Assembly: GCA_947629905.1 (NCBI GenBank)
Contig: CANRFM010000005.1
Location: 1 to 64,000 of the forward strand
Direction: 5' to 3'
Length of the DNA: 64,000 nucleotides
DNA from: an uncultured Clostridia bacterium
Lineage (GTDB): Bacteria; Bacillota; Clostridia; Oscillospirales; Ruminococcaceae
The notes under the pieces were generated by a model, which did no database searches, was not told where the DNA came from, and worked only from the letters and a program-made list of their open reading frames with translations. The number at the start of each line of letters is the position of its first letter. Position 1 is the stretch's first letter. Both the position numbers and the translations under genes were made by a program. Shown one piece after another: positions 51,886-63,422 of the stretch.

Positions 51886-52851
51886 CTATTTTTCCAGTAA
51901 TGCTGCCGTCCAACCCTCTGCGGAACGGACTTCGGTCTGCCGGAAACCCTGCTGTTTCAGCACCCCCAAAACTTCTTCCGCACGTTCGGTGATGATGCCG
52001 GAAACGATCAGCCTGCCGCCCGGTTTCAGGAATGCCCCGAATCGCCCTGCCATGGCGATCAGCACATCTGCCACGATATTGGCGCAGATCAGGTCATACC
52101 CGTCCCCGAGCGTTTCACGCAGTGCCGCATCCGTACAGATGTCGCCGCAGTATGTCCGGTACACTGCTGCATCAATGCCGTTTTCCGCTGCATTTTCGGC
52201 AGCCGTCCGGACGGAATTATCCGCAATGTCCACCGCAGCCGCCTCACCTGCCCCTAACAGCATTGCCCCGATGGACAGGATACCGCTTCCGCAGCCGAGG
52301 TCAAGCACCCGGTCGCCCCGGTGCAGCACCGTTTCCACAAATTCCAGACAAAGCCGTGTTGTGTGATGCTGCCCTGTCCCGAAACTCGATGCCGGGTCGA
52401 TGCGCAGGATCGTGCGGGTGTTTCCGGCAGGTACTGCTTCCCATGAGGGCAAGATCAGGAGCGTTTCGCCAACGGGCAGGGGCTTGAAATACTGCTTCCA
52501 GTTGTTTGCCCAGTCCTCCTCCCGCACATTGCCGCAGGAGAGGGCAAGGCTTCCGTAAAATGCCGCATTTTCGCCGCTTTTCAGCTGTTTCAGCAGCTCC
52601 CGCACCCCCGCAAGCTGTTCTGCCCCCTGTGCATCTTCCGGGAGATAGAACGTGATCTTCGTCTCGCTGTCTGCAAGCTGCATGAGGCTTTCGTCGATAT
52701 AGTCCCACTGTCCGTTCTTGCCGTCCAGAAATTCCTGAAAGTCTTCCTTATCCTCAATGGCAAACCCACGCACCCCGTAATCCGTCAGCAAAGCACAGAG
52801 GGGTTCAATGGCAGGGGTCTCCGTGCAGATCTTAATTTCCATCCAGTTCAT
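51886..52851 (-). CDS. prmA: Ribosomal protein L11 methyltransferase
   Basis: 321 residues. The N-terminal L11-recognition domain (MNWMEIKICTETPAIEPLCA) is followed by the Rossmann domain: RIDPASSFGTGQHHTTRLCL, LDLGCGSGILSIGAMLLGAG (SAM motif I) and CANIVADVLIAMAGRF. It trimethylates L11. The start lies inside the last 20 bases of the transglutaminase gene, with a weak GGGAA site, so it relies on coupling. An earlier in-frame ATG at 52920 is further inside that gene and less likely. Confidence 0.95.
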   Translation of the reverse strand: MNWMEIKICTETPAIEPLCALLTDYGVRGFAIEDKEDFQEFLDGKNGQWDYIDESLMQLADSETKITFYLPEDAQGAEQLAGVRELLKQLKSGENAAFYGSLALSCGNVREEDWANNWKQYFKPLPVGETLLILPSWEAVPAGNTRTILRIDPASSFGTGQHHTTRLCLEFVETVLHRGDRVLDLGCGSGILSIGAMLLGAGEAAAVDIADNSVRTAAENAAENGIDAAVYRTYCGDICTDAALRETLGDGYDLICANIVADVLIAMAGRFGAFLKPGGRLIVSGIITERAEEVLGVLKQQGFRQTEVRSAEGWTAALLEK

Positions 52852-55084
52852 GATTTGTTCCCTTTCTTGCTTTTTTTGCTTCACGGGCAAGTTTCCGCTG
52901 CTGCTTTTCATAGGCAGCACGCTGTTCCTGCCACGTCACATAGCCCTTGGAAAGACGTTCCGTGGTGCTGTGGTGTCCCGTTCCGTACAGGATCATATCC
53001 AGTTCCGCAAACAGCGGCGCATCCGCAAAGAATTTCGCCGAATCCTCGCCCAATTCACGGACTGTCGTGCTGTCAGGAAGATCCCGCATTTTCCGCATCC
53101 GGCAGAACATGGCAGCTGCACAAGCTTCGGGCTGCATTTTTGTGATGTCTTTCCGGAATTTCTTTTCCCGGATAGACGGCAGCAGCAGATACACGCCGCC
53201 TGTCAGCAGCAGCAGTCCGAGCAGGACAAAGCCCCACTGCATCACGACCTGATTTTCGGCAGTGTCGTCCTCCATATCCATGGAAGCCACTGTCGGTTCA
53301 AAACTCATCCACCCGTAGCCCGAAATATAGACCTCCGGGAAAGCATGGGCATCCCGTTCCTTGATGACGTAATTCGTCTCCCTGCCGCCCCGGTTGCTGG
53401 CATCGTACATCTGATTCATGTTGTAGCCCTGTGCGAACCGTGTCGGCAGCCCGGCACTCCGGCAGAGCAAGGTCATAGCCGTGGCAAATTCATAGCACAC
53501 GCCCCTGTGTGAAACGGTCAGAAAGTCCTCGATATTCTCTCCCTCTGCCTTTACATAGTCCGCATCGTAGAGATACCCCTGCTCCGTGAAATAGCGTTCG
53601 ATGGCAAGTGCCTTGTCAATATCCGAGTTCAGTCCCTCGGTGATCTCCTCGGCAAGCGCATCAATGGCATCGCTGTGCCAGTCGTCCAGTAACGTCCTGA
53701 AATGATACAGGTCGGCATCGATCGCCTCATCATAGGCAGCATCAAGCAGTTCTTGCCGTTCGGTGTTCCCGGCTTCCTCCGCAATGGCAGAAGCATCGTG
53801 CAGCAGCAGCGAGTATTCGTCATTGTTCAGCTGCTCCAGTACCGGCAGCACGCTGCTGCTCCGGGCGTAGGTGTCCGGATAGTAGGTCAGCGTTGCAGCC
53901 CGGTAATTTGCCTGAAAGGCATTTGTTGCCGAAATGGTGATATTGGCAGCACCGCTTTGCAGTTCATTTGTCCGTGTCGGTGAAGGAAGCACCCGGAAAC
54001 CGTACCATGTGTACAGATACAGCTCATTTTCCCGCTGTTCCGGCAGCGTCTCCCCGGCAAATTCCGTCAGCCCGTATGTCTCCGCAAAGTCCGCATCCTC
54101 CGCAGCCGTGTCTAAAATGGCTTGCAGCAGTGTCTGTGGTTTGTAGGTCATGGGGGCTGTGTATGGCTGATCCGGTTTGTCCCAGCTCTCAAGCACCGAC
54201 CAGCTGTCGTCCTCGCTGTAGTAAGTAAATGTCTGCGTCCGCAGGCGGAGCGCTTCCGGCGAATTGGCATAGTACAGCGTTCTTGCGCTGTTGGAGATCG
54301 TTCCGGTGTTGTCGGTCGTTTCCGTGAACATGGAGATGGCACTCATCAGCACATCGGAGATCGTGCTGTATGCCATGGCGTTATCGATAAATTCTCTGTC
54401 CGCCGTGATCGCAGGCTTGGGGATAATGGCAGCTAAAATGCTGAACGCTGCCACATAGACAGCAACAGACAGACCGCTGTGAAAGCTGCTGATGCGCCGT
54501 ACTTCCTTGTTTTCCCGGATCTGCCGGCAGTAGACCATCAGCAGGAAATAGCTTGCGAGCAGGATAATGACAAACAGTGCCGGCATCTGCGCACCTTCCT
54601 TGGCATACAGGCTCAAGGGGATGAGCATGATGAGAAACTGCATCGTCATCCGGTAGCGCACTTTGGCAAAATAATATACCGCACTCGTCAGAAATCCGAT
54701 CATCAGCAGATAAATGGAAATCGTATAGATCTGGGAAAAGTCCACAACGCTCTGCGGCGTGAGGAACCAGACACCGAAGCTGATCGGGTAGTTCATCCTG
54801 CCCATGGTGATGAGCATATTCACCCCGTACAGCCCCGCAAATAAATACACAAGATAACAGATCGAACCCAAAAAGCCCTTTTTCGCAACAAAATCATAGA
54901 ACCGCATCAGCACAAAGGACACAAAGACTGCGATGATCGTATACAGCCACGTCCAGTCCTCGTGGTAGTAGTACATACAGGTCATGACCAGAAAGACCGC
55001 ATAGACCTGCACCGGGTCACCGCAGAGTTTCCGGAGAAACTGTACAGCGGGGTGCTGTGCGGTTTTTTTCAGCGTATCCCACAT
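52832..55084 (-). CDS. Transmembrane transglutaminase-like protein (TgpA-like)
   Basis: 750 residues. About six N-terminal helices to residue 225 are followed by an outer domain. The transglutaminase core has catalytic Cys in SHRGVCYEFATAMTLLCRSA and His in ERDAHAFPEVYISGYGWMSF; the expected Asp position reads FEPT rather than FDPT. One more helix (WGFVLLGLLLLTGGVYLLL) precedes a basic cytoplasmic tail. With DUF58 and MoxR directly upstream it forms the common MoxR-DUF58-transglutaminase trio, thought to act on surface proteins. Its 3' end overlaps prmA by 20 bases. Confidence 0.9.
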   Translation of the reverse strand: MWDTLKKTAQHPAVQFLRKLCGDPVQVYAVFLVMTCMYYYHEDWTWLYTIIAVFVSFVLMRFYDFVAKKGFLGSICYLVYLFAGLYGVNMLITMGRMNYPISFGVWFLTPQSVVDFSQIYTISIYLLMIGFLTSAVYYFAKVRYRMTMQFLIMLIPLSLYAKEGAQMPALFVIILLASYFLLMVYCRQIRENKEVRRISSFHSGLSVAVYVAAFSILAAIIPKPAITADREFIDNAMAYSTISDVLMSAISMFTETTDNTGTISNSARTLYYANSPEALRLRTQTFTYYSEDDSWSVLESWDKPDQPYTAPMTYKPQTLLQAILDTAAEDADFAETYGLTEFAGETLPEQRENELYLYTWYGFRVLPSPTRTNELQSGAANITISATNAFQANYRAATLTYYPDTYARSSSVLPVLEQLNNDEYSLLLHDASAIAEEAGNTERQELLDAAYDEAIDADLYHFRTLLDDWHSDAIDALAEEITEGLNSDIDKALAIERYFTEQGYLYDADYVKAEGENIEDFLTVSHRGVCYEFATAMTLLCRSAGLPTRFAQGYNMNQMYDASNRGGRETNYVIKERDAHAFPEVYISGYGWMSFEPTVASMDMEDDTAENQVVMQWGFVLLGLLLLTGGVYLLLPSIREKKFRKDITKMQPEACAAAMFCRMRKMRDLPDSTTVRELGEDSAKFFADAPLFAELDMILYGTGHHSTTERLSKGYVTWQEQRAAYEKQQRKLAREAKKARKGTNHELDGN

Positions 55085-55093
55085 ACTGCCACC

Positions 55094-56287
55094 TCATTTC
55101 TGCACGGCTGTCATGGAGAAATCCTCCGAGAGCAGCCAGAGTGCATCTGCCGTCAGTGCTTGGGTGTCCGAACCGGACGGACAGACACAGCACACATAGC
55201 CCGCATTCCGCAGCGAAACAAGCCTTGCGGAGAGCAGTTCATCCGGGCGGCTGGTATACACCAGAAATGCCCCAGCCCGTTCCTGATCGGCAGAAAGGTC
55301 AATGCGGTTGCCGTCATTCCGGAAATCCGCTGCCGCCAGTTCCACCGCTGCCATGCGCACGGCATCTTCACTTTCGAGGTAAAGACAGTGCCATACACCG
55401 TCCGCCGCATACCGCAGCGAACAGACAATGCCCTGCCTTACCAGCAGCAGCAAGAAGCCCAGCGCCCCCTCGATCAGGGTCTGCCGCTTGCGCAGCAGTT
55501 CCGCCGTCACTTCCGGCTGCAAATCCAGTACCACGGTCGGACGCACGGTCGCAGCTGCTTCGTCCATGCGCACCATGAGCTTGCCACGCTTGGCAGAGAG
55601 CTTGTAATTGATGCGTTTCAGGTTATCCCCCGGCACATAGTCCCGGTGGATATAGCCCGGCATGGTCTGTGAGGAAAAGGCAGCGGCGCTTTCCTCTTCT
55701 TCATCGTCCTGTGTCAGCACCACATCGCTGACGGTGTGCAGCATTTTCGCCGCACCCGAAAGAGACGGGATCGCCGGGATCACACCGACCTTGAGCGTTT
55801 CCGCATTGTTTTTCACCGCAAAGCTGAACAGCCCCAGATAATCCGATACCCGCAGATTTTCCAGAAAGATCAGCCCGCACCCGGCATATTCTGCCGTCAT
55901 GCCGGATTCGATGACAAGCGGTTCGGCAGGTGTCATGGCGCACTGCACTATGCGCCCATCCTCCGGGGTGAAATTGGCATCCTGCCCGATCTGACAGCGC
56001 AGGAACGGTACGGGCAGCTTGCCGGTCGCTGTGATCTGGGTTTTCACGGCAAAGTGCCGTCCCTTGGCAAGGCAGGACGGCGATTCCAAAGAAACCGTAA
56101 TGTGCCGGCTTGCATACCATGATAGCAGTGCCGAGATCAGCGGCGCAAGGAGCAGAAAAGCGCAGATGACCACCCCGATGTCCGCATCGAGATAAAATGT
56201 AAATACATATGCCATGCCTGCCATAGCAGATAGTCCGAACACAAGTTTCAGCCTGTCTGCTACCACGGCAAACCGTGAACGTTTCAT
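55094..56287 (-). CDS. DUF58-domain membrane protein
   Basis: 397 residues: two helices near residues 12-62, then a beta-rich part and the DUF58 signature YVPGDNLKRINYKLSAKRGK near residue 220, followed by a vWA-like segment (RPTVVLDLQPEV). DUF58 proteins partner MoxR ATPases. It starts four bases after the moxR stop and ends nine bases before the transglutaminase. Confidence 0.9.
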   Translation of the reverse strand: MKRSRFAVVADRLKLVFGLSAMAGMAYVFTFYLDADIGVVICAFLLLAPLISALLSWYASRHITVSLESPSCLAKGRHFAVKTQITATGKLPVPFLRCQIGQDANFTPEDGRIVQCAMTPAEPLVIESGMTAEYAGCGLIFLENLRVSDYLGLFSFAVKNNAETLKVGVIPAIPSLSGAAKMLHTVSDVVLTQDDEEEESAAAFSSQTMPGYIHRDYVPGDNLKRINYKLSAKRGKLMVRMDEAAATVRPTVVLDLQPEVTAELLRKRQTLIEGALGFLLLLVRQGIVCSLRYAADGVWHCLYLESEDAVRMAAVELAAADFRNDGNRIDLSADQERAGAFLVYTSRPDELLSARLVSLRNAGYVCCVCPSGSDTQALTADALWLLSEDFSMTAVQK

Positions 56288-56291
56288 GACA

Positions 56292-57227
56292 TCACGCTCC
56301 GGCAGGGACAGGCAGACTGTCTAAAAGCTGCTTGACCAGTGCTTCCGGGCTGCCAAGCTGGTTGCGCCCCTTCGGGGAGAGCAAAATTCTGTGCGCCAGT
56401 ACCGGCACGGCAAGGGCTTTCACATCGTCCGGTGTGACGAAATTCCGCCCGTGTACGAATGCCGAAGCCCGCACTGCCTTGAAGCAGGCGATGCTTCCTC
56501 TCGGGCTGACACCCAAGGCTGCCATGTCGCTTTCCCGTGTCGCATGGACGAGGGCGATGATGTAATTACGCACCCCCTCCGAAACCTGCACGTCATTCAC
56601 CTGTGCCTGAAGCTGTTCCACCTCTGCCGTGGAAATGACCGGTTCGGAAATATTGTTGATCGGGTTGCCCTCTCCGTTTCTGTCTAAGATCGCAAGCTCT
56701 TCCTGCAAAGTCGGGTAGCCCATGGAGATCTTCATGAAGAACCGGTCCATCTGTGCTTCCGGCAGGTGATATGTACCGTAAGTCTCCACCGGATTCTGTG
56801 TCGCAATGACCATGAAAGGACTCGGCAGAATATGGGTCTGCCCGTCCAGTGAGATCTGGTGTTCTTCCATGATCTCCAGCAAGGCGGATTGTACTTTCGG
56901 GGAAGCACGGTTGATCTCGTCGGCTAACAGAAAATTACAGATCGCCGCACCCGGACGGTATTCGAGAGAACCGTCTTTCTGATTGACGACCGAATAGCCC
57001 GTAATATCGGACGGCATGATGTCCGGTGTAAGCTGTATCCGGTGAAACTCTCCGCCCACCGAACGGGAAAGCGCAGCTGCCAGCTGTGTTTTCCCCACGC
57101 CCGGCACATCCTCAAGCAGCACGTGCCCGTTGCAGAGCATGGCAATGACTGCCTGTAAGATCGTCTCATCCTTGCCGACAATGACTTTCCCGGCACTTTG
57201 CAGAATATTCTGAACATCCTTTTGCAT
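56292..57227 (-). CDS. MoxR family AAA+ ATPase
   Basis: 311 residues: Walker A EDVPGVGKTQLAAALSRSV, the PDIMPSDITGYSV loop, Walker B FLLADEINRASPKVQSALLE, sensor 1 VIATQNPVETYGTYHLPEAQ, and the lid with SPRGSIACFKAVRASAFVHG. It is a chaperone-like ATPase that works with DUF58/vWA proteins to mature partner complexes. I start at the ATG of MQKDVQNILQ behind AAGGAGGA. First of the moxR-DUF58-transglutaminase trio. Confidence 0.95.
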   Translation of the reverse strand: MQKDVQNILQSAGKVIVGKDETILQAVIAMLCNGHVLLEDVPGVGKTQLAAALSRSVGGEFHRIQLTPDIMPSDITGYSVVNQKDGSLEYRPGAAICNFLLADEINRASPKVQSALLEIMEEHQISLDGQTHILPSPFMVIATQNPVETYGTYHLPEAQMDRFFMKISMGYPTLQEELAILDRNGEGNPINNISEPVISTAEVEQLQAQVNDVQVSEGVRNYIIALVHATRESDMAALGVSPRGSIACFKAVRASAFVHGRNFVTPDDVKALAVPVLAHRILLSPKGRNQLGSPEALVKQLLDSLPVPAGA

Positions 57228-57324
57228 CGCTGTTCCTCCTTGCAAGGGCAAAATGCCCTGAATTGTCCTTATTTTACCACAATCATGTGATAATTCTGTG
57301 AAATCTGCATGAAAGCAGTTATGG

Positions 57325-57356
57325 AAAAGAGGAAGAAGGCTGCTTCTTCCCTTTTC
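57325..57356 (-). terminator. Terminator between the TPM lipoprotein and moxR
   Basis: AAAAGAGGAAGAAG-GCTG-CTTCTTCCCTTTTC is a stem of about 13 bp with one mismatch, 5 bp after the TPM gene stop. On the minus strand it ends in CTTTTCC. So the rlmB-to-TPM and moxR-to-arsC parts may be separate or partly separate transcripts. Confidence 0.7.
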
Positions 57357-57360
57357 TGTC

Positions 57361-58398
57361 CTATTTCAGCCCCTCTAAAAATACATCTGCTGCCGCATAG
57401 GCATCCTGTTCTGCCAGTGCCGCCTGTACAGCCGCAGTCAGTTCCGCCGGGACACTGCCGGCAATGACACTTTGTTTCCCCGGTACATCGATCAGCAGAA
57501 AGCCCTCTGCTTCCGTCTGCACCCGTAACTGTTCCGCATAGGCAGACAGCGGCTCCGCTTCGGTCGGGGCAGGTGCTGTCTCCGTGGGCTGCGTTTCACC
57601 CTCTGTGGGCTGCGTTTCACCCTCTGTGGGCTGTGTTTCCGTGGGTCGTGTTTCTGTTTCTGAGGGCTGCGGCTCTGTCGCTGCGGGCTGCGTTTCCGCT
57701 TCGGCAGGGGCAGGAATGCTTGCCGCAAAATACACGCAATACTTTTTCGGCAGTGCATCTGCCTTGGTGGTCAGTGCCTGTACCTGTTCCGGGGAAAGCG
57801 TTCCGCTGCGTTCCAGAATCCGATCCGGAATGCGTTCGCCGAGCGGCAAAAAAATTTCCAGTGCATCGGCATAGCGCCCCTCCACCAGTGCCGGGCTTGC
57901 CTGTGCAATGGCAAGTGAAACTGCCGCATCATCCACATATGAGGACACAACGCCCTCCCGGTAAATGCAGTCCTGTCCGGTATCATTGTTGATGAGCACC
58001 AGAAAGCCGCTTGTACCCGTTCCCCAGAGTGTCTGATAATACGTCTGTGCGAATGCCTCCGGGCTGCTGCCGTTCAAGTCGTCCGTCAGTACCACCGTTG
58101 TGCAGAGCAGTCTTGTTTCCGCAAGCCACCCGAGGTAGTTGTTGTAGGTCTTTACCGTCTCCCCGTCCAGTACGCCGCACTCGTCAAACACATACGTATC
58201 CCCGGCTTTCCGCAGGGATGCGGCACGTGCGGCAATATCCCGCACGGGTGCAGGCTCCGTTTCCGTGGGAGCTTCCGTTTCTCCGGCAGTCTCTGCCGCT
58301 GTTTCAGGCTGTGTTTCCTCCGGAACAGAAGAACTGTCCGTTTTGCTGCACCCCGTCAGGCACAGCAGCGCAAGGCACAGCAGGAGCAGTTTTCGCAT
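57361..58398 (-). CDS. TPM-domain lipoprotein with repeat linker
   Basis: 345 residues. The signal MRKLLLLCLALLCLTGC gives lipidated Cys17, then a Thr/Glu/Pro linker. Residues about 60-190 form a TPM (YgcG/TPM_phosphatase) domain: YVFDECGVLDGETVKTYNNY and QTLWGTGTSGFLVLINNDTG. A second low-complexity segment with exact repeats of PTEGETQ (about residues 247-275) follows, then a helical end. TPM proteins are linked to membrane-protein repair and envelope biology, but their role is unsettled. Start ATG with GGGGG upstream, two bases from the LCP stop, so the two are coupled. Confidence 0.8.
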   Translation of the reverse strand: MRKLLLLCLALLCLTGCSKTDSSSVPEETQPETAAETAGETEAPTETEPAPVRDIAARAASLRKAGDTYVFDECGVLDGETVKTYNNYLGWLAETRLLCTTVVLTDDLNGSSPEAFAQTYYQTLWGTGTSGFLVLINNDTGQDCIYREGVVSSYVDDAAVSLAIAQASPALVEGRYADALEIFLPLGERIPDRILERSGTLSPEQVQALTTKADALPKKYCVYFAASIPAPAEAETQPAATEPQPSETETRPTETQPTEGETQPTEGETQPTETAPAPTEAEPLSAYAEQLRVQTEAEGFLLIDVPGKQSVIAGSVPAELTAAVQAALAEQDAYAAADVFLEGLK

Positions 58399-58399
58399 A

Positions 58400-59752
58400 T
58401 CATTCCCCCACCGATTTCGTATAGGCATAGGCACTCTGTTTCAGAATGTCCTGATTCGCTTCAAAATTGACCTGCAGTGCCTGCTGCCCGTCCGGCATGG
58501 TGATACCCGACCAAGTCCCGTCCGCCGGAATTTGCTGCTGCTGCAAATCATATCCGACCAGAAGCGGCGCACGCAGCGAAAGCACGTACAGTTCCGCCGT
58601 GCTCATATTCGTTGACAGGTGCGGCATGGCAGAACCGACCAGTTCCGGAATGGCTGCGGCGGCGTTGGTCTTTGCCTTTTCAAGGAGTTTTTCCATGACC
58701 TCACGCTGCCGGGAAGTGCGCTCAAAATCCGCATTCCCCACATACCGTATCCGTGCATAGGCAAGCGCCTGCTTGCCGTTGAGCTTATATGTTCCCTCTC
58801 CGTTCAGGAAATCCGCCATCGGGTCGTCCCCCATCAGGGCATTGACTTCACTCTGCAAAATGACATTGACCGCCTGTGCTTCAGAATCTGAGAGAGTCAG
58901 TTCCACCCCCCCGAACGCATCAATTACCCCCGCAAATCCCGCAAAGCTCACGCACAGATAATCATCAATGCGCACATTAAAATTCTGCTCGACCGTATCG
59001 AGCAGCAGATCTGCACCGCCGAGCGAATAAGCGGCATTCAGCTTGTTCATGCCATGCCCGGGAATGTTCACATAGCTGTCCCGCATCAGGGAGCTCAGGT
59101 ATAACTCCTGCGTGTGGTCATTGATCGTCAGTAAGATCATCGAATCCGACCGCCCCCGCTCCTGCGTCAGGTCACGGGAATCTGTTCCGATCAGCAGAAT
59201 GCTCCGGGTATTGCTCCCCGTTCCGATCTGCCCGGAAAAAATGCTCCGGCTGCCGGAAGGTACTTTTTCGAGACGTGAGATCAGCAGCAGTGCGATCACG
59301 GAATACAGTACAAACACAATGACAAACAGGCTGAGAATGCCTTTCAGGATGCGCCCGAGACAGCTGCTCCGGCGCTTTCTCCGGCGGGGAGGGGGGGCAG
59401 CAGTATACTGTCTGCTGCCATGTCCGGAGGCTGTACGCCTTTTCCGGGGTGCAGGGGCAGCGGTATAGTCCCCATAGCCGGGCGTATCGTCGTAGCTGTA
59501 GTCATCTTCGTATTCCATCGGGGGAATGGGTATTTCAGCCGTATCGCTTGCGTAGGGGTGACGGCTGTCCTGTTTGCGCACGGGGGGAGCAGAAGTGTTC
59601 CGGTTCTTTGGCTTGCGTGCAGCAGGCCGCCCCTGTTCCGCACGGGCAGGCTTTTTCTGTGCTGCACGGTGCAGTTCACCCGGTTTTTCCGGGGGCTTCG
59701 GCGGTTTTTTCGGCTTCGGCAGATCAGAGCCGTTTCCCCGCTGTTCGTCCAT
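58400..59752 (-). CDS. LytR-CpsA-Psr (LCP) family ligase
   Basis: 450 residues. A Pro/Arg-rich cytoplasmic head of about 130 residues precedes the anchor helix (LSLFVIVFVLYSVIALLLIS). The LCP domain shows LLIGTDSRDLTQERGRSDSM (conserved Asp and Arg), LYLSSLMRDSYVNIPG and ALAYARIRYVGNADFERTSR followed by QREVMEKLL. LCP enzymes attach teichoic acids, capsule or other polyprenyl-linked glycans to peptidoglycan. It lies between the pseudo-ATPase and the TPM lipoprotein. The usual C-terminal LytR_C domain is missing. Confidence 0.93.
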   Translation of the reverse strand: MDEQRGNGSDLPKPKKPPKPPEKPGELHRAAQKKPARAEQGRPAARKPKNRNTSAPPVRKQDSRHPYASDTAEIPIPPMEYEDDYSYDDTPGYGDYTAAPAPRKRRTASGHGSRQYTAAPPPRRRKRRSSCLGRILKGILSLFVIVFVLYSVIALLLISRLEKVPSGSRSIFSGQIGTGSNTRSILLIGTDSRDLTQERGRSDSMILLTINDHTQELYLSSLMRDSYVNIPGHGMNKLNAAYSLGGADLLLDTVEQNFNVRIDDYLCVSFAGFAGVIDAFGGVELTLSDSEAQAVNVILQSEVNALMGDDPMADFLNGEGTYKLNGKQALAYARIRYVGNADFERTSRQREVMEKLLEKAKTNAAAAIPELVGSAMPHLSTNMSTAELYVLSLRAPLLVGYDLQQQQIPADGTWSGITMPDGQQALQVNFEANQDILKQSAYAYTKSVGE

Positions 59753-59779: not shown

Positions 59780-62218
59780 TCAATAGGTGCGCCGGATATT
59801 CACGGCGATCAGTGTAATGAGCGATGCAGCAAGCTGTACAAGAAGCAGCCGGGCGGGCGAAATGCCCACATTCAGCAGCCCTTCGAGCAAAACAAGCCCC
59901 AGCCCCAGTAAGATCGCAGCCGCCTGAATGAATATGCCGTACACCGCCGCATGGCGGATGACTTTTGCACCGATGATCAGCTGCGCCACCCCGGAAAAGC
60001 TGCCGGAGCAAGCCATGGAAGCGCTCATCTCCCGGACCGGAGCGGTTTCTGCTTCGTAGGCTTCATGGAGTTTGGCAGGGATGATCTTCAGGATACTTTG
60101 CGGCACTTCAAGCAGGGAGGAAAGCCCTGCCAGTGTCAGCATCGGGTCAACGCTCCGCAGGATCAGGCAAATATTATGCCTTGCCGCCTGTTTCGCCCAG
60201 AATTTTACATTCCTGTCTGCCTTCAGCTGCACCAGAAACATCGCCGACAGACTGCCTGAAACAGACAGGTACACGGCTTCCTGATTGACACCGACCATTT
60301 CGGCTTCCCTCGCACGGGAGGGAAGTCCCTCAATGCTGTGGGATTCCATCAGTTCCCGGTTGCCAAGCAGGACACGCTGATTGTCGATCCAGCCGCACAG
60401 TCCCATAGAATCTTCATAGACATAATTTTCCACACGGGAGAGTTTATATTCCTTGCCCTGCAATGCCTCATCGAAAGCCTTTCCGAACACGCTCGAAGCG
60501 CACCGGGCAAGGCTTGCGGCAGTGAGCAGGGTTCTTTCCGGCTTGATATTGGCATAAATTTTCACACCGGCAAGCGTGACAGAACCATCCGGAAAGAGGG
60601 ATTCCGCATCCACCAAAAGTGCATTGGTGTCATAGAAATCATCCACGCTCTGATAGCCAAGCATCAGTGCGCCGTTCTTTGTCATCTGCCGGGTCGCTTT
60701 CAGCAGCGGCAGATTGACCACGAACGTGATCGCAGCGGCACTGCTTGCCGCCGTGAACATCGAAAACAGCCGCAGACCATATACGATCGTATCAGCCCGC
60801 AGCACCGTCAGTGCCACGGCTGCCGCAATGGAAAACAAAGTCGCAAGCGGTGCGGCATAGCGGCAGAAATGGTCTGCCATGTCTGCTGAATAGGTATACT
60901 TCCGGAAATCGATCAAAGAATCCGTCCGGCGCATCGTCGCCATGATCGGGAAATCCCCCAGCACGCCCCTTGCCAGCGCATCGGCACGCTGTTCATCCTC
61001 AATAATGCTCAGACCGCTGCACGTGGTGCGGCTTGCGGCAAGTCGGAGATTCGTCTCCTCCCGGCGGATGATGAGCAGCTTGCCAGCTGTGTGCAAAAAC
61101 AGTGCCAGCACCGTGCATGGCAGATAGTAGGGCAGCGTTTCTTTTCCGCCGACAGCCATTATGAAATTACCAATATCTGCCGCAAAGCACCCGACCAGTG
61201 CCACAGCCCCCAAGCTGTCCGTATCTGCCCGGAAACGAAACAGCCGGGAAAAGCCATTTTTCAGAACAGGCGCACAGGCAACGGCTGCTGCTATCGTCAG
61301 CAAGCATTCGATCACTGCCCGCATTACGGGGTGCATCTGCATGACCCAATTGAATTGAAAATGTCCGCCGATCACAAACAGACCGCTGACAAGCAGCACC
61401 AAAAACAGTGCCCCTGTCCGGAAATTGATCGCACCACGCAGCTCCGCAATGTCATGCCGGATGTCGGATACATTGTCCAGATCCATGCTGTTGGTGATCT
61501 CCTGCCGGCGGCGGGTCTCGGCTTCGGCTTCCTCTCTCGTGCGGCGGATGTCCACATCGATGGAATCCGCACCCACGGCATTACCGGCGCTGAGGTCAAT
61601 GCTGGTCTTGGCTGCTCTTGGGGCAGGAGGAACCTCGACCGGTTCTACCGGCGGAACGGGTGTCGTCTGCGATACCGTCACGACATCCCGCAGATCCAGA
61701 TGAATGGTCTCCGTTCCGGCAGCCGTCAGATCGGGCATCTGCCGGTTTTTCCGGCGGCTTCTTGCCTTGCGTGCGCCGTGGATCTGGGTATAGAGATACT
61801 CTCCCTCCGGGCGCTCCTTTTCGTAGGTATAGTCCTTTTCCTTGCGGGCAGAGCGCTTTTTGCGCTTCTTGTCCTTGGCGATCTCCCGTGCCCGTGTGGA
61901 ATCGCTCATGCGCCGGATCTTCGGCGTATCCGCAGAAAAAACAGGCGGTTTCTCCGGTTCGGGCTCGACAAAGCGCTGCCCGCCGGACGAACCGTTGACA
62001 CGCATCGGCATTGGCTCGGCTTCGGCAGCATCCGATTCTAAAAAGGAAATTTTCGTGCGTCCCGTTCCTGCCGGCGGACGGCGCAGCAGGGGCGGTTCGG
62101 CGGTCTCCTCTTCCGGGGCGGGCGGAGGGGACACCGGTTTGACCGGGGGTGTTTTCTTTTCGGACTGGGGAGCGTATTCGTCAAGGATCTCCTCCAGTGT
62201 CAGATCTTGTTTCTCCAT
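59780..62218 (-). CDS. Degenerate P-type-ATPase-like membrane protein with long N-terminal tail
   Basis: 812 residues. Residues 1-262 are a charged Pro/Glu/Arg-rich cytoplasmic tail. Then come four helices (from about 265), a short loop, two helices, a cytosolic domain (about 505-750) and two final helices: the layout of a P1B-type ATPase. The cytosolic part keeps P-type landmarks: VLLGNRELMES near 618, VYLSVSGSLSAMFLVQL, and LRSVDPMLTLAGLSSLLEV near 690. The catalytic motifs are gone: the DKTGT position reads VDAESLF (Asp537), no TGES is seen in the first loop, and no GDGxNDxPAL is seen. It is most likely a pseudoenzyme with a structural or sensory role. It lies between rlmB (10 bp) and the LCP gene (27 bp). 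Confidence 0.72.
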   Translation of the reverse strand: MEKQDLTLEEILDEYAPQSEKKTPPVKPVSPPPAPEEETAEPPLLRRPPAGTGRTKISFLESDAAEAEPMPMRVNGSSGGQRFVEPEPEKPPVFSADTPKIRRMSDSTRAREIAKDKKRKKRSARKEKDYTYEKERPEGEYLYTQIHGARKARSRRKNRQMPDLTAAGTETIHLDLRDVVTVSQTTPVPPVEPVEVPPAPRAAKTSIDLSAGNAVGADSIDVDIRRTREEAEAETRRRQEITNSMDLDNVSDIRHDIAELRGAINFRTGALFLVLLVSGLFVIGGHFQFNWVMQMHPVMRAVIECLLTIAAAVACAPVLKNGFSRLFRFRADTDSLGAVALVGCFAADIGNFIMAVGGKETLPYYLPCTVLALFLHTAGKLLIIRREETNLRLAASRTTCSGLSIIEDEQRADALARGVLGDFPIMATMRRTDSLIDFRKYTYSADMADHFCRYAAPLATLFSIAAAVALTVLRADTIVYGLRLFSMFTAASSAAAITFVVNLPLLKATRQMTKNGALMLGYQSVDDFYDTNALLVDAESLFPDGSVTLAGVKIYANIKPERTLLTAASLARCASSVFGKAFDEALQGKEYKLSRVENYVYEDSMGLCGWIDNQRVLLGNRELMESHSIEGLPSRAREAEMVGVNQEAVYLSVSGSLSAMFLVQLKADRNVKFWAKQAARHNICLILRSVDPMLTLAGLSSLLEVPQSILKIIPAKLHEAYEAETAPVREMSASMACSGSFSGVAQLIIGAKVIRHAAVYGIFIQAAAILLGLGLVLLEGLLNVGISPARLLLVQLAASLITLIAVNIRRTY

Positions 62219-62228
62219 CTATGTAAAC

Positions 62229-62951
62229 TCATCCTCTCTGACGCACAACTTCATACATAAAAATACCTGCTGCCACGGAAGCATTCAGGGATGTGATCTT
62301 GCCTAACATGGGCAGTTTCACCAGAAAATCGCATTTTTCCCGGACAAGACGGCTGATGCCGCTGCCCTCCGAACCAATGACGAGTGCCACGCCCCCGTCA
62401 AAGCTTGTCTCCGTGTACAATGTTCCGTTCATATCCGTGCCGTAGATCCACACGCCCGCTTCTTTCAGGCGGTCAATGGCTGCGGCTAAATTGGGGACTC
62501 TTGCGACCGGGAGCCAGCTTGCTGCCCCGGCAGAGGTCTTGTGGACTGTGGCATTCAGCACGGCGCTGCGGCGTTTCGGGATGATGACCCCGTCTGCCCC
62601 GGCAGTCTCCGCCGTGCGGATGATCGCTCCTAAATTATGGGGGTCCTCGATCCCGTCACAGAGTATCAGGAAAGGCTGTGTCCCCTTGTTCCGGGAAACC
62701 GATAGCAGATCCTCCAGTTCCGCATACTTGGCACAGGCACCCAGTGCCACAACGCCCTGATGCACCCCGCCGCCGGATAGCTGGTCAAGCTTCTGTTCCG
62801 TTGCCGTCTTGACGACGGCACCTGCCTCGGCTGCCAACTTGCGTATTTCACCGAGCCCGCTGCTCTGGCTGACATAGACCGTGTCGATCGGCTGACCGCT
62901 GCGCAGTGCTTCCCGGACGGGATTCCTGCCGATGATAATGGTTTCCTCCAT
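62229..62951 (-). CDS. rlmB: 23S rRNA 2'-O-methyltransferase RlmB (SpoU family)
   Basis: 240 residues. The N-terminal rRNA-binding part IIIGRNPVREALRSGQPIDT is followed by the SPOUT trefoil knot: motif 1 ILCDGIEDPHNLGAIIRTAE, motif 2 LVIGSEGSGISRLVREKCD and motif 3 KLPMLGKITSLNASVAAGIF. It methylates G2251 (E. coli numbering) in the P loop. It is first gene of the long minus-strand run that continues with the pseudo-ATPase. Confidence 0.95.
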   Translation of the reverse strand: MEETIIIGRNPVREALRSGQPIDTVYVSQSSGLGEIRKLAAEAGAVVKTATEQKLDQLSGGGVHQGVVALGACAKYAELEDLLSVSRNKGTQPFLILCDGIEDPHNLGAIIRTAETAGADGVIIPKRRSAVLNATVHKTSAGAASWLPVARVPNLAAAIDRLKEAGVWIYGTDMNGTLYTETSFDGGVALVIGSEGSGISRLVREKCDFLVKLPMLGKITSLNASVAAGIFMYEVVRQRG

Positions 62952-63100: not shown

Positions 63101-63346
63101 TCACAGCAGCAGGCTGAACCCCCACCAGACTGCCGCCGAAACGGCTGCCCCGAGCAGAAACCACAGTGCACCCCGCAGACGTTCCCGTCTCCGTTCCGGC
63201 TGTGAAAAATAGGCTGCGGCTGTCAGCTGCGTTTCGTGCAGCGGTACTTCGTTCACGTCCGGGCGGAGATACAGCACTGCCCGTTCAAAATATTCGCTGT
63301 CCGGGCGGTTGATCTCAATGACTTTCCTGTTCACACCTTTGATCAC
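63101..63346 (-). CDS. Small tail-anchored membrane protein (GTG start), unknown
   Basis: 81 residues. The start codon is GTG, six bases after AAGGAGG; upstream ATG readings have no such site. The first 55 residues are polar (GVNRKVIEINRPDSEYFERA), then an Arg-rich stretch and one C-terminal helix (ALWFLLGAAVSAAVWWGFSL), so the protein is probably inserted by its tail. I recognise no family. Its promoter region abuts the DnaA-box-like cluster. Confidence 0.6.
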   Translation of the reverse strand: MIKGVNRKVIEINRPDSEYFERAVLYLRPDVNEVPLHETQLTAAAYFSQPERRRERLRGALWFLLGAAVSAAVWWGFSLLL

Positions 63347-63394
63347 GGAATTGCCTCCTTCCTGTTTAAGGATAGGATTGCCGGAAACCGGTAA

Positions 63395-63422
63395 AGTATA
63401 CAAGCTGTATTGCATTTTTCAA
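63395..63422 (-). promoter_or_regulatory. Promoter of the small tail-anchored protein
   Basis: Minus strand TTGAAA, a 16-bp spacer and TATACT, about 49 bp upstream of the GTG. The nearest TGTGGAAAA site begins 19 bp upstream of the -35. Confidence 0.7.

Follow-up and report, generated by a model that had tools for sequence, protein, structure and literature searches.

The window, as we call the whole 64,000-nucleotide stretch of DNA analysed here, contains an intact open reading frame for a protein of 812 amino acids that resembles a P1B-type ATPase deprived of its catalytic motifs. The gene lies on the minus strand, between a gene for a 23S rRNA methyltransferase and a run of envelope genes. 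The features of the region, all on the minus strand, are as follows.

52832-59752, minus strand: run of LCP, TPM, MoxR, DUF58 and transglutaminase (TgpA-like) genes, downstream of the pseudo-ATPase gene.
59780..62218, minus strand: putative pseudo-P1B-ATPase gene, ATG start, 812 amino acids, frame intact.
59795..59944, minus strand: helices 7-8, residues 759-808 (hydropathy, hhalign).
59945..60700, minus strand: remodelled P/N remnant, residues 507-758, GDGxND segment deleted (profile and family alignments).
60143..60160, minus strand: LRSVDP, residues 687-692, in which D691 corresponds to the Asp of TGD (family alignment).
60593..60613, minus strand: VDAESLF, residues 536-542, at the DKTGT phosphorylation site (LpCopA register, family alignment).
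60701..60856, minus strand: helices 5-6, residues 455-506, CPC cysteines replaced (hydropathy, family alignment).
60857..61066, minus strand: actuator domain remnant, residues 385-454, TGES deleted (family alignment, loop lengths).
61067..61423, minus strand: helices 1-4, residues 266-384 (hydropathy; collinear with LpCopA 80-217).
61424..62218, minus strand: charged cytosolic tail, residues 1-265, probably disordered (composition before the first helix).
62174..62197, minus strand: LEEILDEY, residues 8-15, N-terminal motif.
62229..62951, minus strand: rlmB, SpoU family 23S rRNA methyltransferase, 10 bp upstream of the pseudo-ATPase gene and its order-wide neighbour.
63101-63415, minus strand: small single-helix protein, 104 amino acids, no Pfam match above cut-off, upstream of rlmB.

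Hydropathy analysis of the window protein predicted eight helices arranged 4+2+2 (residues 269-287, 301-319, 338-356 and 366-384; 455-473 and 488-506; 759-777 and 790-808), with a loop of about 250 residues preceding the last two. This is the P1B membrane layout around a cytosolic P/N-like domain that the original prediction had proposed, and the end-to-end profile alignment described below agrees with it. The two landmarks on which that prediction drew, VLLGNREL and LRSVDP, are both present, at residues 616 and 687 respectively. In some relatives a simple hydropathy scan found only six or seven helices.

Comparison of the window protein with PDB sequences (phmmer) identified CopA of Legionella pneumophila (LpCopA; 3rfu) over residues 447-716 (E=8.7e-9), in an alignment that puts VDAESLF on the DKTGT site. 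A family profile, A1, made from an alignment of 29 cores, reached LpCopA at E=4.7e-37; the match falls into three collinear blocks, which score 19.1, 111.0 and 1.1 bits, the third being carried by its collinear order and not by its own score. When 72 family rows were compared by hhalign with 30 genuine P1B rows, both sets being drawn from one joint alignment, they matched over 549 columns (probability 100, E=1.6e-40). These three results rule out a chance resemblance to P1B ATPases and extend the likeness first read from the window protein to an end-to-end homology. Among curated models, TIGR01525 (NCBIfam) matched the window protein at E=3.1e-10 with 39.6 bits, below its curated cut-off of 346.25, and was matched by 20 of the 29 cores at E<=1e-3; the CopA model NF007952 was matched by 21 of them at the same threshold, all far below cut-off among the scores tabulated. 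Pfam gave no family above cut-off for the window protein and no match at E<=0.01 for any of the 29 cores, and recognised no enzyme domain. No Pfam or NCBIfam model claims the family, as represented by the window protein and these cores. A quick tree, for which two P2 pumps served as outgroup, separated the family and the P1B ATPases from P2 with an SH-aLRT support of 100 and made the family one group, also at 100; the genuine P1B rows grouped at only 52, and the program warned of long branches meeting. Judging from these comparisons, the family is related to the P1B ATPases by common descent, its position inside or beside them being left at that support of 52. From helix 1 to helix 8, including the N domain and part of the P domain, it is collinear with CopA (3rfu; NF007952, TIGR01525). 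It differs from CopA in being without DKTGT, TGES, CPC, the His of SEHP and GDGxND, in its shorter actuator loop, and in carrying a long N-terminal tail where CopA has metal-binding domains.

The catalytic parts were followed through 74 copies of the gene (74 loci, the window included), 72 of which gave alignable rows. Neither DKTGT nor TGE[SP] occurs in any of the 74 copies. Shorter strings were found here and there (TGE in 13, TGD in 11, CP[CSH] in two and GDG..D in one, the last at a place other than the GDG columns). At the DKTGT site, the first position is Asp in 36/72 rows, the window's among them (D537); the Lys and the last Thr are found in no row, and the G position is occupied by Asp or Glu in 50. 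Gaps fill the TGES columns in 69 of the 72 rows and the GDG columns in all of them. The first Cys of CPC, in helix 6, is A, S, V, T, G, L or I in 70/72 rows, the SEHP His of the N domain is replaced by other letters in at least 71/72, only 23/72 rows still have the first Gly of GxG, and the YN and MxxS metal-site residues of helices 7-8 are replaced in most rows. Loop lengths changed as well. The interval from helix 4 to helix 5 has a median of 73 residues (60-90) against 138 in the 30 genuine pumps, and that between the TGD Asp and helix 7 measures 81 (74-84) against 113, while the spacing between the DKTGT and TGD sites is kept (154 in both). With both stretches shorter than in pumps, what is left of the actuator domain is a remnant, and the P domain is cut at its end. 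The loss of DKTGT, TGES and GDGxND, originally read from the window protein, holds for the motifs and is shared by the homologues, none of which has DKTGT; the reading has to be corrected in one respect, in that the window protein lacks the K, T, G and T of the phosphorylation motif but still has the aspartate. As the alignments show, the family has an altered phosphorylation motif, has lost the TGES and GDGxND segments and carries other residues in place of the metal ligands. Its status as a family of pseudoenzymes is well supported, so far as sequence can tell.

Other positions have been kept or newly fixed. The Asp of TGD (D691) is present in 71/72 rows, with Thr or Ser at the T of this motif in 59, and glycines 606 and 619 of the N domain are invariant in the 72 rows, as they are in genuine pumps. 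Together, the acidic residue retained in half of the rows at the DKTGT site, the TGD aspartate and its Thr/Ser leave room for a residual ligand-binding or chemical role. A further set of residues is conserved in the family and differs from genuine pumps: F438 (60/72), D446 (49/72), P504 (62/72), F542 (63/72), P543 (62/72) and Lys or Arg at 553 (65/72). Tyr at 665 (52/72) and Trp at 798 (55/72) belong to the same set, the window protein departing from the family at both. Against its nearest relative (L035, 94% identical), the NG86 values of dN and dS were 0.031 and 0.398, a ratio of about 0.08, and for the tail alone 0.038 and 0.410. The protein was remodelled under purifying selection and is not decaying.

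The A1 profile, at E<=1e-50, matched 241 of 247 sampled genomes of the order, a large order of gut bacteria that we take to be GTDB Oscillospirales, in 133 of 135 genera and in 22 labelled families. With at most five candidates scored per genome, a single family match was found in 240 of the 241 positives and two in the remaining one (G539). In a sample of the class, 14 of the 15 genomes of the order matched over the full length, with 314 bits or more, and none of the 278 genomes outside it did; the best of these 278 scored 129.9 bits over helices 5-6 and the P/N part only, where genuine pumps match. In a sample of the phylum, 3 of 249 genomes matched at E<=1e-45, all three from the same order. 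Weak matches within the order (59/61 genomes at E<=1e-3, for example G040) were left out of these counts and may be genuine pumps. Named relatives came from Oscillospiraceae, Ruminococcus, Clostridium, Clostridia MAG records, Vescimonas fastidiosa and Subdoligranulum variabile. The six genomes of the order that failed to match, and G005 from the window's own genus, gave only pump-like partial matches. In five of the six and in G005, no SpoU match exceeded 64 bits, as against at least 192 for the rlmB neighbours scored; in the sixth, G350, rlmB lies at a contig end and is followed by a truncated family-like N-terminus. The misses lacking SpoU may reflect loss of the gene together with rlmB or gaps in the assemblies, co-loss being a weak reading in that one gap could hold both genes. 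Retention in 241/247 genomes, the absence of DKTGT from all 74 copies and the low dN/dS rule out a recent loss of the catalytic motifs. The early suggestion of an undescribed family is borne out to the extent that no model claims it and that it does not stem from one such loss; as sampled, it is an order-specific family of predicted pseudo-P1B-ATPases. Plasmid and PHROG searches revealed no link to mobile elements.

Two side observations concern individual copies. Of the 74 copies, just two, L048 and L059, are split, that of genome G058 (L048) having one in-frame TGA. The locus L185 (NZ_AP023416.1) belongs to an 860-kb Vescimonas replicon that is filed as a plasmid and carries rlmB, ftsH and groEL; it looks more like a second chromosome than a plasmid.

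The neighbourhood of the gene was surveyed at the 74 loci (23 labelled families, two loci without a label), neighbour names resting on one representative per cluster. At 73 loci the gene is preceded, on its own strand, by a SpoU/RlmB gene, which is the immediate neighbour at 71; a stricter distance test also placed rlmB upstream at 71. The exception is L067, with an Obg GTPase upstream instead. No other neighbour family rose above 13 of the 74 loci in the clustering. An EF-G-like protein is encoded nearby at 13 loci, at 12 of them downstream (e.g., L138:7999-10080, plus strand), and an LCP gene is found downstream at 11, of which ten belong to the window's genus and one (L114) to another genus of the same family. 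The LCP, TPM and MoxR genes from which the original prediction drew an envelope setting are thus real in the window but not order-wide: an envelope operon is ruled out as the general context, LCP being confined to the genus of the window and a single near relative, and the neighbour that persists across the order is rlmB. A small membrane protein precedes rlmB on the same strand at 13 of the 74 loci by clustering and at 19 by profile, and the single-helix protein of the window could be a further member of the rlmB/pseudo-ATPase unit. In the window, the pseudo-ATPase gene starts 10 bp after the rlmB stop codon and a purine-rich AGAGAGG lies within the last rlmB codons; translational coupling of the two genes is plausible. 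In Vescimonas, too, rlmB is followed after 10 bases by the family gene (WP_212820792.1, annotated "hypothetical protein"), and the Subdoligranulum record, which carries no annotation, has the same pair. Neither isolate's copy contains DKTGT, TGE[SP], GDG..D or CP[CSH]. Gene order (RlmB, Obg once, EF-G-like proteins downstream at 12 loci) suggests a link to ribosome maturation; the pairing with rlmB may also be only co-transcription.

Residues 1-262 of the window protein include 46 Lys or Arg and 48 Asp or Glu, a composition from which the tail is probably disordered; Pfam recognised no known domain in it. The charged 262-residue tail described at the outset is present, but instead of being a domain added to the window protein alone it is an N-terminal extension that recurs through the family, with 17 to 901 residues ahead of the first helix. 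For ten relatives with long tails, inspection by eye covered the first 260 residues. A relaxed motif, [LIVFM][DE][DE][IL][LMF], occurs within the first 80 residues of 38/71 copies, where 500 shuffles gave 0.56 on average and never more than 3, and was not found in the other 33; a stricter form occurs in 27/74 tails, against 0.25 in shuffles, all of these counts being inflated by relatedness, most of all within the window's genus. The strict form was not found in any of 603 other ORFs of 41 loci. Genome-wide, a DNA pattern of the motif matched in 31 of 61 genomes, while a backward control gave two matches. Of the 30 loci listed for these matches, 28 were readable: 12 were family genes, nine fell in the C-terminus of one protein of about 285 amino acids, three in a disordered protein and four in others. 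As the pattern also occurs in unrelated proteins of the same genomes, its use as the marker of a partner network is not established. In the window's genus, a disordered acidic protein of about 800 amino acids (L208:7-2379, L209:1-2352 and L212:1-2559, all on the minus strand) contains repeats of DDMLAQF/IDEILAEF, which resemble the family's N-terminal motif.

The chemistry and the metal path have been lost, the core formed by the membrane helices and the N domain has been kept, new positions are conserved and the tail resembles a docking segment. From these features we infer, with somewhat more belief than doubt, that the pseudo-P1B-ATPase does not pump and would instead be a scaffold in the membrane, docking partners by a disordered tail. 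The eight helices would anchor the protein in the membrane, the remodelled P/N remnant would present a surface to which proteins bind, and the long tail, bearing the motif [LIV][DE][DE]IL.E[FY] at its N-terminal end, would capture cytosolic partners, perhaps in a process co-expressed with the methyltransferase RlmB. Several points count against a scaffold: the 33 of 71 tails in which the motif was not found, the occurrence of its pattern in unrelated proteins, a pairing with rlmB that may be mere co-transcription, and the Asp that half of the rows retain at the DKTGT site and nearly all at TGD. The retained Asp residues would be explained if the protein were a ligand sensor, the P/N remnant binding nucleotide, phosphate or Mg2+ without hydrolysis and signalling its state through the helices or the tail. 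The Thr or Ser adjoining the TGD Asp, the two invariant N-domain glycines and the acidic character of the DKTGT site, with Asp or Glu at its G position in most rows, are in keeping with such a sensor, which we nevertheless consider rather improbable: the SEHP His is missing from nearly every row, GDGxND is deleted, the first Gly of GxG is seldom kept, and the glycines, being equally invariant in genuine pumps, may be structural. A more specific form of the scaffold, which we put forward very tentatively, would make the dead metal pump a defining protein of the order, rebuilt into a platform whose charged tail ties factors of ribosome maturation or translation (RlmB and, depending on the lineage, the neighbouring Obg or EF-G-like GTPases) to the inner membrane face.

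Shared descent and membrane layout would also suit a protein that regulates the genuine P1B pumps of its own cell as a partner, or acts as their decoy, and in 117 of the 118 genomes sampled from the order a genuine P1B protein was matched at E<=1e-60. This seems unlikely in view of G438, which has the family and no P1B match at that threshold, and of the fact that no adjoining pump gene was recognised among the annotated representative neighbours. Still harder to sustain is an ATP-independent channel or carrier using the old membrane path; all eight helices are kept, but the CPC cysteines are replaced in at least 70/72 rows, as are YN and MxxS of helices 7-8 in most. Recent inactivation, a pseudogene or an assembly artefact, to which the two split copies might point, is scarcely credible given order-wide retention, purifying selection and the open, motif-free frames of two named isolates.

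Besides CopA, the nearest known system we encountered is eukaryotic. According to PMC6592433, Plasmodium guanylate cyclase beta contains a degenerate P4-ATPase-like domain; it belongs to the P4 subfamily and is joined to a cyclase, whereas the present family is of P1B type, bacterial and without an enzyme domain detectable by Pfam. In the open-access literature searched, no stand-alone bacterial pseudo-P-type ATPase was described, absence from print at large being beyond the scope of that search. The presence of an inactive pump in 241 of 247 genomes, with no comparable match elsewhere in the class and phylum samples, points to a conserved, lineage-specific function. The family would be a case of the P1B scaffold put to another use in the absence of its chemistry, and its genes should not be annotated as metal pumps.
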